In this document: one piece after another, positions 14,628 through 18,197 of the stretch
Numbering within the stretch: position 1 is the stretch's first letter
Layout of the letters: the number at the start of each line of letters is the position of its first letter
Virus record (IMG/VR): IMGVR_UViG_3300039106_000113
Location: 1-38,553 of that record
DNA: 38,553 bases
Strand: one strand, 5' to 3'
Source of the DNA: a virus
Made by a program: the position numbers and the translations under genes
Notes under the pieces: generated by a model
Databases searched by the model: none
The model's input: only the letters and a program-made list of their open reading frames with translations
Told to the model about the DNA's origin: nothing

Positions 14628-14787
14628 TAAAGACAAGTATCACATGATCTGCGGTGAGTACACTATCGCCATATACTTTAACGGTTATAACAAAAGATAC
14701 GGACTAAGCAAACAAAATAAAAACTTAGGCTATTTTGATAATTTAGATGATGCAAAAAAAGAGGCGAAAAATGATAACGATAGGTAA
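14614..14787 (+). CDS. Small AP2-like/LGYF protein
   Basis: 57 residues from MLWLDKDKYHMIC; a GTG at 14605 would add three. It ends NLGYFDNLDDAKKEAKN, like the last strand and helix of AP2-type DNA-binding domains found in phage homing endonucleases. Overlaps both neighbours (14 and 17 nt). Could be a small DNA-binding protein; weak evidence. Confidence 0.45.
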   Translation: MLWLDKDKYHMICGEYTIAIYFNGYNKRYGLSKQNKNLGYFDNLDDAKKEAKNDNDR

Positions 14788-15529
14788 AGCAACGCTACAC
14801 AATGTTGATTGCATGGATTATATGAAGTCATTGCCAGATAATTCAGTTGATTTAATTGTTACATCACCACCATATAACATGAGAACTAGAGTAAGAAATG
14901 GTGAATATACAACTAGAGAAAAGTCAGACCATTTTAGTAAAAAATATAATAATTTTGATGACGCACTAACTATTGATGAATACTTTACTTTTCACTCTAA
15001 CGCTATAAATGAAATGCTAAGGTTGTCTAAAATAATAATTTATAACATACAAATTGTTACTGGTAGCAAAGAGGCATTATTTAAAATAATCGGATTATTT
15101 CATAAAGAAATTAAAGATATAGCAATATGGGATAAAGGTCATGGGCAACCATCAATGCACGATGGAGTCTTAAATAAAGCAACTGAATTAATTTTAATAT
15201 TAGAACCAAATGCTAAGGCTGGTCGTTGTTTTAATACTTTTAATTTTAAAAGAGGCACACTAAGCGATATTTGGAGAATACAAAGAGAGCAAAACGAGGT
15301 TGAAGGACACTCTGCAGCATTTCCAATTAAATTTGCAGAAACAGCAATATTAAACTTTTCAAAAATTAATGATATAGTTTTTGACCCATTCATGGGAACG
15401 GGAACAGCTGGCGTGGCTTCTTTAAATCATAACAGATGGTTTTATGGGTGCGAGCTAGACAAAGACTACTACGAGGCATCAATCAAGCGCATAACTCAAG
15501 CTACTGCACAAGAAAGATTATTTGCATAA
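14771..15529 (+). CDS. DNA N4-cytosine/N6-adenine methyltransferase (beta class)
   Basis: 252 residues from MITIGKATLHNVDC, with the ATG at 14771 preferred over an extension to 14747. Motif IV TSPPYN (31-36) comes before motif I DPFMGTGTAG (205-214), the order of beta-class enzymes; SPPY suits N4-cytosine or N6-adenine. It transfers methyl from SAM to DNA. No restriction enzyme is adjacent, so it is an orphan enzyme, likely for evading host restriction or marking phage DNA. Target sequence unknown. Locally AT-rich compared with the C5 enzyme region. Confidence 0.9.
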   Translation: MITIGKATLHNVDCMDYMKSLPDNSVDLIVTSPPYNMRTRVRNGEYTTREKSDHFSKKYNNFDDALTIDEYFTFHSNAINEMLRLSKIIIYNIQIVTGSKEALFKIIGLFHKEIKDIAIWDKGHGQPSMHDGVLNKATELILILEPNAKAGRCFNTFNFKRGTLSDIWRIQREQNEVEGHSAAFPIKFAETAILNFSKINDIVFDPFMGTGTAGVASLNHNRWFYGCELDKDYYEASIKRITQATAQERLFA

Positions 15530-15759: not shown

Positions 15760-15940
15760 GATGACCTGTAATGAATTCATCCAAAAGATGAAAGCAGCAG
15801 GCTTTACAGGAAAGTTTCGTGCAACAGATGGTAAGCAAGTAATAACTGGCGAGATTAAAGCAGAAAAAGTTGATACGGTAAAGGTTACAACTTCAGACGA
15901 GTCAAGGCGCAAAATTAAGGATATGTTTCATGGAAGTTAA
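15752..15940 (+). CDS. Small basic hypothetical protein
   Basis: 62 residues (ATG 15752; an alternative Met at 15761). Helical start (CNEFIQKMKAAGFTGKF) then beta (VITGEIKAEKVDTVKVT). It overlaps the HTH gene (8 nt) and ninB (11 nt), so it is part of the same message. Function unknown. Confidence 0.6.
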   Translation: MTEMTCNEFIQKMKAAGFTGKFRATDGKQVITGEIKAEKVDTVKVTTSDESRRKIKDMFHGS

Positions 15941-16301
15941 GAATTTCAACATTAGCACAAGTAACTTGCCTTATCTGTTTGAAAAGATTAAGGCACTAGA
16001 CTTATCGCTAGGTTATGTCTGCAATGTAACGATTAAGTCACATGGTAGAAGTACAGACCAAAATTCACGTCTTTGGAAGCTATACAGCGCACTAGGTGAC
16101 TACATTGGTGAGTCACCAGATGGTATTCATGTGCTTATGGGTTATAAATTTTTAAGATGCCAGCACGTAGTTAATGGTGAAACGATAGAGTCTATATTAA
16201 GCACGACTAAACTAACGACTGCTGAAATGGCTGATTATCAAAACAAGATTGAGTTATGGGCTGGTAGTATAGGGTTTGCGTTTGGGGGAGAAAATGAATG
16301 A
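15930..16301 (+). CDS. ninB: NinB-family recombination protein
   Basis: 123 residues, shorter than lambda NinB (Orf). Retained features: GRSTDQNSRLWKLYSALGD, MGYKFLRCQHVV, and TTKLTTAEMADYQNKIELWA, which correspond to the NinB core. NinB/Orf binds ssDNA and can substitute for RecFOR in phage recombination, fitting the exonuclease, ERF and SSB genes. Its stop overlaps the start of the 299-residue ORF (ATGA at 16298-16301). Confidence 0.85.
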   Translation: MEVKNFNISTSNLPYLFEKIKALDLSLGYVCNVTIKSHGRSTDQNSRLWKLYSALGDYIGESPDGIHVLMGYKFLRCQHVVNGETIESILSTTKLTTAEMADYQNKIELWAGSIGFAFGGENE

Positions 16302-17178
16302 GCTGGCTCTTTTCGCAGGTGCTGGTGGAGGAATTCTTGGAGGAAAACTCTTGGGATGGCGAACAATCTGTGCAGTTGAGCGTGATGCCTACGCAGCACA
16401 AGTTTTGGCGCAACGACAAAATGATGGAATTCTTGAACCCTTCCCAATTTGGTCTGACGTGTGCAGTTTTGACGGGACAAAATGGAGAGGACTTGTTGAC
16501 GTGGTATCTGGAGGATTCCCGTGCCAAGACATTAGCGCAGCAGGAAAAGGCGCAGGAATTGACGGTGAAAGAAGTGGATTGTGGAAAGAATTTGCACGGA
16601 TTATTGGCGAAGTTAGACCTAGATACGCTTTCGTGGAAAACAGCCCAATGCTCACTACTAGAGGACTTGGAGTTGTCCTTGCAGACTTGGCCGCGCTGGG
16701 GTTCGATGCGGAATGGGGCGTGCTATCTGCGGCCGATGTTGGTGCAAACCACCAAAGAGAAAGAATATGGATACTTGCCGAACAACGAAACTTTCTTTCA
16801 CACTCCGAACACGACAGGAATGGATGGAGGGAGCAACTCACGCAAAGCTCTGAAAAAGAGAATGCAACAATGGCCTACTCCAACAGTTGGATGTATAGAA
16901 GGAGGGGAACAATCAAGCCGTGTGGAAAAAAACGAATCAGGTGGATATTTGTTGAGAAAAATGAACAAGCCACATATAACTTTTGGAGCAAAACTTTCAG
17001 ACGCAGTAATTTACGAGGAAAAACAAAAGAAACCAATAAGTGGTGGGAAACTGAACCCAACGTGGGTAGAGTGGCTGATGGGGTGGCCTATGGGATGGAC
17101 AGACTTAAAGCCATTGGAAATGGACAAGTTTCATTATGTGCAGCAACCGCTTTCACCTTGCTTAGAGAAAGATTCTAA
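16294..17178 (+). CDS. C5 cytosine DNA methyltransferase
   Basis: 294 residues from MNELALFAGAGGG (ATG 16294). Motifs in order: FAGAGG (7-12, SAM), GGFPCQDIS with catalytic C77, ENSP (115-118), NHQRERIWI (152-160), and AIGNGQ near the C-terminus. The target-recognition part between VIII and IX is short, giving a small enzyme. It methylates cytosine C5, probably for protection from host nucleases. Almost its whole length (881 bp) is also open in the +1 frame (next entry), and the region is visibly more GC-rich than its neighbours. The GGGGGAG is only 3 nt from this ATG, so initiation may depend on ninB coupling. Confidence 0.9.
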   Translation: MNELALFAGAGGGILGGKLLGWRTICAVERDAYAAQVLAQRQNDGILEPFPIWSDVCSFDGTKWRGLVDVVSGGFPCQDISAAGKGAGIDGERSGLWKEFARIIGEVRPRYAFVENSPMLTTRGLGVVLADLAALGFDAEWGVLSAADVGANHQRERIWILAEQRNFLSHSEHDRNGWREQLTQSSEKENATMAYSNSWMYRRRGTIKPCGKKRIRWIFVEKNEQATYNFWSKTFRRSNLRGKTKETNKWWETEPNVGRVADGVAYGMDRLKAIGNGQVSLCAATAFTLLRERF

Positions 17179-17197
17179 AAATGAAATTACACCATAA
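16298..17197 (+). CDS. Overprinted 299-residue ORF inside the C5 methyltransferase gene
   Basis: Starts 4 nt after the methyltransferase ATG (ATGAATGA), in the +1 frame, and stays open for 299 codons. GGGGGAG lies 7 nt upstream, better spacing than for the methyltransferase, and its ATG overlaps the ninB stop. The protein begins MSWLFSQVLVEEFLEENSWD, has PRWGSMRNGACYLRPM and WPTPTV in the middle, and ends with LNPTWVEWLMGWPMGWTDL and CLEKDSKNEITP. From memory, proteins with this opening and this WVEWLMG-P-GWTDL ending recur in phages beside C5 methyltransferases, which suggests a conserved dual-coded gene. Function unknown. Confidence 0.75.
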   Translation: MSWLFSQVLVEEFLEENSWDGEQSVQLSVMPTQHKFWRNDKMMEFLNPSQFGLTCAVLTGQNGEDLLTWYLEDSRAKTLAQQEKAQELTVKEVDCGKNLHGLLAKLDLDTLSWKTAQCSLLEDLELSLQTWPRWGSMRNGACYLRPMLVQTTKEKEYGYLPNNETFFHTPNTTGMDGGSNSRKALKKRMQQWPTPTVGCIEGGEQSSRVEKNESGGYLLRKMNKPHITFGAKLSDAVIYEEKQKKPISGGKLNPTWVEWLMGWPMGWTDLKPLEMDKFHYVQQPLSPCLEKDSKNEITP

Positions 17198-17351
17198 AGC
17201 TAAACTAACTAACGACCAGGTTAAAGATATGCGTAAACAGCATCTAGCTTACGTTGTTGGCTATGAAACACTTGCTAAACGCTTTAACTGTGGCATATCA
17301 ACAGCTAGAGATATATGTACTTATAGGACACGATACAATGTCAAAGGCTGA
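17181..17351 (+). CDS. 56-residue HTH-like protein
   Basis: Unlisted short gene starting MKLHHKAKLTNDQVKDMRKQ. The segment GYETLAKRFNCGISTARDIC has the layout of a helix-turn-helix as seen in phage transposase-like or resolvase-like small proteins. Overlaps the end of the 299-residue ORF by 17 nt and the HNH gene by 14 nt. Probably DNA-binding. Confidence 0.6.
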   Translation: MKLHHKAKLTNDQVKDMRKQHLAYVVGYETLAKRFNCGISTARDICTYRTRYNVKG

Positions 17352-17592
17352 ACGATTATATTTTAACAAGGTAGCAGAACTGGGTTGTATGGTTTGTAAG
17401 ATGCCAGCCGAGATTCATCATCTTAGAACTGACGCAGGTATGGGCATGAAAAGCAAAGAGGTTATCCCATTATGTCCAACGCATCACAGAAATGGTGGTT
17501 ATGGTGTTGCTATTCATGCAGGTAGGTTAGAGTTTGAAGCCAACTTTGGCACAGAGTTAGAGTTACTAGAAAAAATGAAAGGTTTACTATGA
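17338..17592 (+). CDS. Ref-like HNH nuclease domain protein
   Basis: 84 residues from MSKAERLYFNKVAEL (ATG 17338; longer readings cover the upstream HTH gene). CMVCKMPAEIHHLRT and IPLCPTHHRNGGYGVAIHAG give the zinc/HNH pattern of the phage P1 Ref-like group, which nicks DNA and acts in recombination. Short for Ref, with only the nuclease core. Its stop overlaps the next start (ATGA). Confidence 0.75.
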   Translation: MSKAERLYFNKVAELGCMVCKMPAEIHHLRTDAGMGMKSKEVIPLCPTHHRNGGYGVAIHAGRLEFEANFGTELELLEKMKGLL

Positions 17593-18197
17593 GTGTCAAC
17601 GGCATTTATTTTTCAAAGACTAAACAAAAATGGATTGCTCAATGCAGGTCAGATGGTAAGGTAAATCATATAGGCACGTATGAAACACCAGAGCAAGCAT
17701 CAATGGCTTATGCCAGCTTCAGACTTAATCTAAAACGTGAACCAACTGCTAATGACTATGTAAGGTTAGCAAGATACAAGTCATACTGTGAGTTCTGTAA
17801 AACGCCTAGAACAATATCAGAAATGTTTGCTAATTATCCTAAATCTAATACGGGTTCAGTTCGTCATGTATCAGATTACCTGGTGCAAGAAGGTTTTATA
17901 GAAAAGAAAACACAAAGCGCAAAAATTAACGCTAAAGATAAGTACATATACGTTACCATCAAAGACTTTAAAGACACAGACCTAAAGCCTATGGGCAGGT
18001 CGCAAATAAATAAAGTAAGATTTGAAACAACAATGGGTATTAAAGCTAAAGATATTATTGATGGTGCTAGAGTGATTAACTTTGATAACTTGCACCTACA
18101 AGCAAAGTATAATGAGCAACGACATTTAGATAGGCTGGCCATGAAGTCACCTAAAAACTATATAAGCGGTGCAACCATGTCAACTGCTGATTGGTAG
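17589..18197 (+). CDS. AP2-domain protein with possible winged helix
   Basis: 202 residues. Residues 5-48 (GIYFSKTKQKWIAQCRSDGK, HIGTYETPEQASMAYASF) form an AP2 DNA-binding domain like those in phage HNH homing endonucleases, but no HNH motif follows. Residues about 66-115 (CEFCKTPRTISEMFANYPKS, then VRHVSDYLVQEGFIEKK) resemble a winged helix. It is the last gene before the late promoter region, so a transcription or antitermination role is an attractive guess, unproven. Confidence 0.65.
   Translation: MSVNGIYFSKTKQKWIAQCRSDGKVNHIGTYETPEQASMAYASFRLNLKREPTANDYVRLARYKSYCEFCKTPRTISEMFANYPKSNTGSVRHVSDYLVQEGFIEKKTQSAKINAKDKYIYVTIKDFKDTDLKPMGRSQINKVRFETTMGIKAKDIIDGARVINFDNLHLQAKYNEQRHLDRLAMKSPKNYISGATMSTADW

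Follow-up and report, generated by a model that had tools for sequence, protein, structure and literature searches.

A phage C5 cytosine methyltransferase that is probably encoded as two subunits in overlapping frames of one gene

In the C5 cytosine methyltransferase M.EcoHK31I the gene for the beta subunit lies in another reading frame inside the gene for alpha. The enzyme, which acts on YGGCCR, consists of two polypeptides, alpha with motifs I to VIII and X and beta with motif IX, and its predicted target-recognition domain (TRD) was placed in the larger subunit (PMC3404938). M.AquI likewise consists of two polypeptides, one bearing the catalytic motifs I to VIII and the second bearing IX and X (PMC3404938). 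In the ShiLan-type arrangement, a phage methylase gene hides an HNH endonuclease whose coding sequence belongs to an inserted mobile element (PMC11855218). Here we describe a locus in an IMG/VR virus record (38,553 bases; this whole stretch is called the window) in which two overlapping frames, alpha and beta, very probably encode a single heterodimeric C5 methyltransferase. Alpha would be the catalytic chain and beta would provide target recognition and motif IX, and the two products would associate and depend on each other.

The features of the locus are listed in Table 1. Beta, the product of which begins with MSWL, is read in the +1 frame of alpha and overlaps it over 16298-17178, and both ATG codons fall within ATGAATGA. 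An earlier note, made from the letters of this DNA, had pointed to two start codons followed by two frames that stay open for about 300 codons and share 881 bp, which the ORF coordinates confirm. It was also right that the second frame has the better ribosome-site spacing (7 nt against 3 nt after GGGGGAG), that its ATG shares an ATGA with the stop codon of a ninB-like gene, and that the overlap is GC-richer than its surroundings (0.46 against 0.32-0.38), given that GC content is 0.463 over 16294-17193, 0.32-0.37 upstream and 0.37-0.38 downstream. A second DNA methyltransferase, of the N6/N4 type, is encoded upstream of the locus (14747-15529; PF01555, E=3.4e-31), and downstream there are genes for a RecA-dependent nuclease-like protein (17254-17592; PF16786) and for a weak AP2-domain protein (17589-18197).

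Table 1. Coordinates of the two frames, their motifs and adjoining elements in the window
Feature	Position	Strand	Remarks
Alpha, C5 cytosine methyltransferase frame	16294-17178	+	294 aa; motifs I-VIII and X; PF00145 E=1.5e-32, phrog_363 E=2.8e-66
Beta, MSWL frame (+1)	16298-17197	+	299 aa; putative target-recognition and motif IX subunit; phrog_1008 E=3e-27
Shine-Dalgarno-like GGGGGAG	16284-16290	+	ends 7 nt before beta ATG, 3 nt before alpha ATG
NinB/Orf-like recombination mediator	15930-16301	+	phrog_72 E=5.1e-17; stop overlaps beta start (ATGA)
Alpha motif I, FAGAGGG	16312-16332	+
Alpha motif IV, GGFPCQ	16510-16527	+	catalytic Cys
Alpha motif VI, ENSPML	16636-16653	+
Alpha motif VIII, NHQRERIWI	16747-16773	+
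Alpha motif X, GNGQV	17116-17130	+	kept by 81 of 83 alpha frames
Beta TWPRWGSMRNG	16685-16717	+	conserved element upstream of recognition region
Beta WPTPTV	16871-16888	+	repeated module within variable recognition region
Beta motif IX-like LNPTWVEWLMGWP	17051-17089	+	just upstream of DNA encoding alpha motif X; HHalign with second-family betas, P=0.0043
Switch region	16783-17094	+	alpha unconstrained linker; purifying selection on beta (putative recognition region and motif IX)

The database search that had been proposed for the 299-residue protein returned, besides phrog_1008 and phrog_26627, more than 590 relatives in IMG/VR, of which the best 80 were kept, and 78 of these 80 match beta from residue 1. 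Homologues beginning at the equivalent ATG, which had been set beforehand as a test, are thus present in related phages. Together with Acinetobacter phage ABMM1 and Salmonella phage S9-5 the first analysis comprised 82 loci, in nearly all of which both frames are open across most or all of the gene, whereas the third frame has 11-32 stops. The exceptions are a second-frame stop at codon 144 (L069), two shorter methyltransferase frames (L079 and L038) and a stop just ahead of the methyltransferase start (L031). No first-round locus that includes the 5' end has lost the beta ATG, which mostly has a Shine-Dalgarno-like sequence 7-11 nt before it. The codon 4 nt upstream of the beta ATG, scored in 81 loci, is ATG in 42, GTG in 13, TTG in 9 and no start codon in 17; where this alpha start is missing, alpha can begin at an upstream ATG or, 5 nt downstream, at an ATG or TTG. 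The MSWL proteins, described in the earlier note as neighbours of phage C5 methyltransferases, are encoded inside the methyltransferase genes, and a dual-coded pair of this length, although unusual in general as had been supposed, is common within this methyltransferase class. Among prophage copies, two (L096 and L085) have alpha interrupted by a TAG nonsense codon and a beta frame open over its full length, which speaks against the two-subunit reading. The copy in E. coli PCP07014 (L359), an annotated pseudogene, is interrupted in each frame by a stop near codon 121, and the gene pair in E. coli PT62 (L360) is intact in both frames.

A second family was retrieved with the alpha catalytic region as the only query, so that the search was blind to beta. 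It returned 80 loci, and in 79 of them the +1 frame stays open for 120 codons or more (median 216), whereas the +2 frame reaches this length in none (median 33). The second-family betas are homologous to the MSWL proteins (HHalign, E=9e-36), and they start inside alpha, roughly at motifs III-IV, with start sites that are less clear. By comparison, none of 51 single-chain C5 genes is stop-free in the +1 frame from motif IV to X (mean of 10 stops), the 51-sequence C5 set including at least one two-frame member (L183). Relatives occur in phages of Acinetobacter, Salmonella, Klebsiella, Pseudomonas, Vibrio, Stenotrophomonas, Microcystis, Bacteroides, Paenibacillus larvae, Lacticaseibacillus and Mycobacterium, as well as on a few plasmids and in bacterial genomes. 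In the phages of Stenotrophomonas, Mycobacterium and Bacteroides, beta is open in the C-terminal part only, and mycobacteriophage Llama and the deep-sea phage KM23-C739 have a frame shift in mid-gene. In Llama (L111) one frame change breaks both frames and the methyltransferase appears as two annotated genes, as in several related phages. Three contigs differ in a poly-G run inside the overlap, with 10 G in L171 and L172 (near 1910-1985) and 11 G in L178 (near 1413-1488), a change by which the two frames trade places and alpha motifs I-IV become fused to beta. It may be due to phase variation, to decay or to a slip in sequencing.

Alpha is itself a recognizable C5 methyltransferase, since the motifs taken to define a PF00145 enzyme (I, IV with PCQ, VI, VIII and X) are all found in this one chain. 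The statement that it has every C5 motif needs correction in one respect, given that motif IX was not found and the alpha matches to M.HhaI and M.HaeIII in the PDB stop at residue 163-164. A motif IX-like pattern was present in none of 83 alpha frames, although the pattern is evidently strict, as it was also found in no beta. In C5 methyltransferases motif IX normally lies just upstream of motif X. At the corresponding position beta has a site, LNPxWVExLMxWPxxWTxL-like, which is present in 71 of 83 betas and, as an IX-like signature, in 71 of the loci from the second-family search. When 51 C5 methyltransferases were aligned with the second-family betas by HHalign, the best local match placed RRLTPRECARLMGFPD on SLNPTWVEWLMGFPPG (P=0.0043), a modest match that weakened to P=0.019 with both families pooled. 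A first, small Dcm-type set gave no match to beta, the motif IX match being obtained with the larger set, and a scoring matrix from 12 motif IX sequences, too thin a sample, ranked the LNP site as the top beta site in 64 of 163. Upstream of this site, the WPTP modules of beta differ in number and kind among relatives.

Motif X provides a further connection. Nine contigs, with at least three architectures among them (L135; L138, L139, L141, L158 and L169; L167, L168 and L178), have it in the beta ORF, which runs 63-156 residues further into motif X (VDRLKAIGNGQVP), and lack it in alpha. Its presence in beta would be difficult to understand if beta were not part of the enzyme. In L138 (1809-3212), L158 and L169 an insert of about 156 residues, alike among these contigs, separates IX from X in beta. 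Other searches with beta gave little. No Pfam or NCBIfam family matches it, Pfam at relaxed thresholds gave nothing credible for beta or for the X-containing betas, the Pfam match of composite alpha-beta-alpha sequences still failed to run through motif IX, and a PDB profile search with beta returned chance matches only. AlphaFold2 models of the window beta (85-sequence alignment, pLDDT 56) and of a second-family beta (76 sequences, pLDDT 52) had no meaningful PDB match. Such database silence and poor models would suit a protein that folds only together with its partner, which is not to say that they are evidence for such folding.

How the two frames share the work is indicated by the distribution of constraint along the gene. 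Between motifs IV and VIII alpha is the more constrained, with an NN/SN ratio of 0.16-0.17 in both families, whereas from motif VIII to X the values are 1.28 for alpha and 0.37 for beta in the MSWL family, and 1.48 and 0.13, respectively, in the second family. On disjoint pairs this contrast gave Fisher p values of 8e-25 in one family and 7e-24 in the other, with sites within a pair treated as independent, and in bins of 75 nt the switch point was located at the end of motif VIII. The same is observed when the window is compared with the single relative L001, where beta dN/dS from VIII to X is 0.27 and that of alpha 2.21; 33 changes at 64 sites are silent only in beta and 4 at 65 sites are silent only in alpha. 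Since alpha is neutral and beta constrained in this segment, selection there sees the beta protein, and the alpha residues under the recognition region behave as a linker that needs only to stay open.

Because alpha lacks motif IX and is neutral from VIII to X, its recognition domain must come from elsewhere, and the IX-like site in beta, together with the nine contigs having motif X in beta, points to alpha as the catalytic chain and to beta as the putative chain for target recognition and motif IX. In the mechanism that we propose, ribosomes would start beta at the well-spaced ATG adjoining the ninB stop, and alpha at the codon that precedes this ATG by 4 nt. Alpha would form the catalytic large domain, with the SAM site, the PCQ nucleophile and motifs VI, VIII and X, and beta would form the small domain, with the WPTP modules of the target-recognition region and motif IX. 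The products would then associate, only the pair would recognize and methylate its site, and methylation would presumably shield the phage DNA from host restriction. The locus is thus most likely a phage-borne methyltransferase with specificity residing in beta. Extended to the relatives, the evidence makes it probable, with less assurance than for the window itself, that a widespread class of phage and prophage C5 enzymes are obligate two-frame heterodimers with one domain per frame, and that in the lineage of the window the frame for the small domain grew in the upstream direction until all of the methyltransferase gene was dual-coded.

Three other explanations have to be weighed against this one. 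The second frame could be open merely through the conservation of the methyltransferase and its codon bias, and not be translated; alpha motifs such as FPCQDIS do force parts of the beta sequence, and in the catalytic part divergence by codon position peaks at alpha third positions. The chance that this is the whole explanation is nevertheless practically nil. Synonymous codon shuffles of the window alpha gave a mean of 6.5 stops in the beta frame, where there is none, and not one of 400 shuffles reached zero. Over 79 loci, in shuffles that preserve the alpha protein and codon use and in which the overlap ends at the earlier stop of each locus, so that the L069 truncation is excluded, 5.5 stops per gene or 437 in all were expected and none was observed; the frequent second-frame stops that would have spoken against dual coding were not seen. 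The reverse shuffles of beta codons in 79 loci predicted 865 stops in the alpha frame, again with none observed. Divergence at fourfold sites, counted at identical Gly, Ala, Val, Pro and Thr residues and binned by protein identity, was 0.42, 0.36 and 0.29 for alpha at 60-70, 70-80 and 80-90% identity, against 0.64, 0.55 and 0.52 for flanking single-coded genes of the same loci in the matching bins, and the reduction was similar in motifs I-IV and IV-VIII. With changes classed by their effect on both frames, the closest pairs gave dN/dS values of 0.20-0.48 for beta and 0.13-0.32 for alpha, in agreement with the earlier claim that both proteins are constrained, although for the first 75 residues of beta one estimator indicates weak purifying selection (NN/NS 0.7-1.0). 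Moreover, beta dN/dS is 0.13-0.37 where alpha is neutral, and none of the 51 single-chain C5 genes is open in the +1 frame from motif IV to X. These results confirm that the conserved pair is genuinely dual-coded.

Dual coding, conservation and selection would also suit a beta that is a separate protein and no part of the enzyme, acting as a regulator, inhibitor or helper of the methyltransferase or against host restriction. None of the sequence or fold searches identifies beta. We regard this as improbable, since alpha has no motif IX and is neutral from VIII to X, exactly where beta is most constrained, since motif X can be in beta instead of alpha, and since beta accompanies essentially every alpha of the class. 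Of the roles suggested in the earlier note, complementing the methyltransferase agrees with the recognition domain and motif IX that beta appears to supply, and a regulatory or inhibitory role is not supported. Programmed frameshifting, by which alpha (I-VIII) would be joined to beta (recognition region and IX) as a single chain, would account for the collinearity of the elements across the two frames, and rare contigs do fuse the frames via poly-G or poly-A changes. It is very improbable all the same, given that beta retains its own ATG in the first-round loci with a 5' end, mostly at good Shine-Dalgarno spacing, and is open from there through motifs I-VIII, and that two shifts would be required for a single chain that includes X. 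No intact single-chain relative was found among the retrieved loci, which included two frame-fused contigs only.

If the heterodimer reading holds for the whole class, the starts 4 nt apart may fix the subunit ratio, and specificity would evolve in beta while alpha drifts beneath it as a passive linker. Because gene finders normally retain one frame, the examined records of this class usually show one protein, in some cases beta under the label 'DNA methyltransferase', and the annotated protein expressed alone may prove to be an inactive enzyme. The locus would also be an unusually clean case of natural overprinting, in which selection hands over between frames at a structural domain boundary, and hence a test bed for the origins of overlapping genes, as well as a natural split methyltransferase, of use in a field where engineers have so far mainly split monomeric enzymes.

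The beta ORF has been seen before, without a two-subunit explanation, as the records of phrog_1008 and phage Lily indicate: phrog_1008, which matches beta, goes under the label 'DNA methyltransferase', and in phage Lily the match to a second-family beta overlaps LILY_63 ('g62 internal gene', 'hypothetical protein'), both labels being silent on the subunit relation. A paper describing this phage class was not found among open-licence full texts. The locus has in common with the ShiLan-type genes an out-of-frame ORF within a phage methylase gene; a hidden HNH gene was considered and rejected, as beta has no HNH match in Pfam, there is no insertion and the arrangement is fixed across the class. 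M.AquI resembles the nine relatives with motif X in beta, and differs from the window, where motif X (GNGQV) remains in alpha. By the described motif division, the window alpha, with I-VIII and X and without IX, is like that of M.EcoHK31I, which is, by analogy, a precedent for the division of labour proposed here. Unlike in M.EcoHK31I, the start of the window beta follows that of alpha by only 4 nt, so that beta spans the entire alpha gene, with an extra N-terminal part over motifs I-III, and selection puts the probable recognition region in beta, whereas the TRD of M.EcoHK31I was predicted in the larger subunit. As far as the open-licence literature shows, what is new relative to these systems is the whole-gene overlap of the window with starts 4 nt apart, the change of constraint between frames at motif VIII, the forms with motif X in beta, and the breadth of the arrangement across phages of many phyla, some copies being partial.
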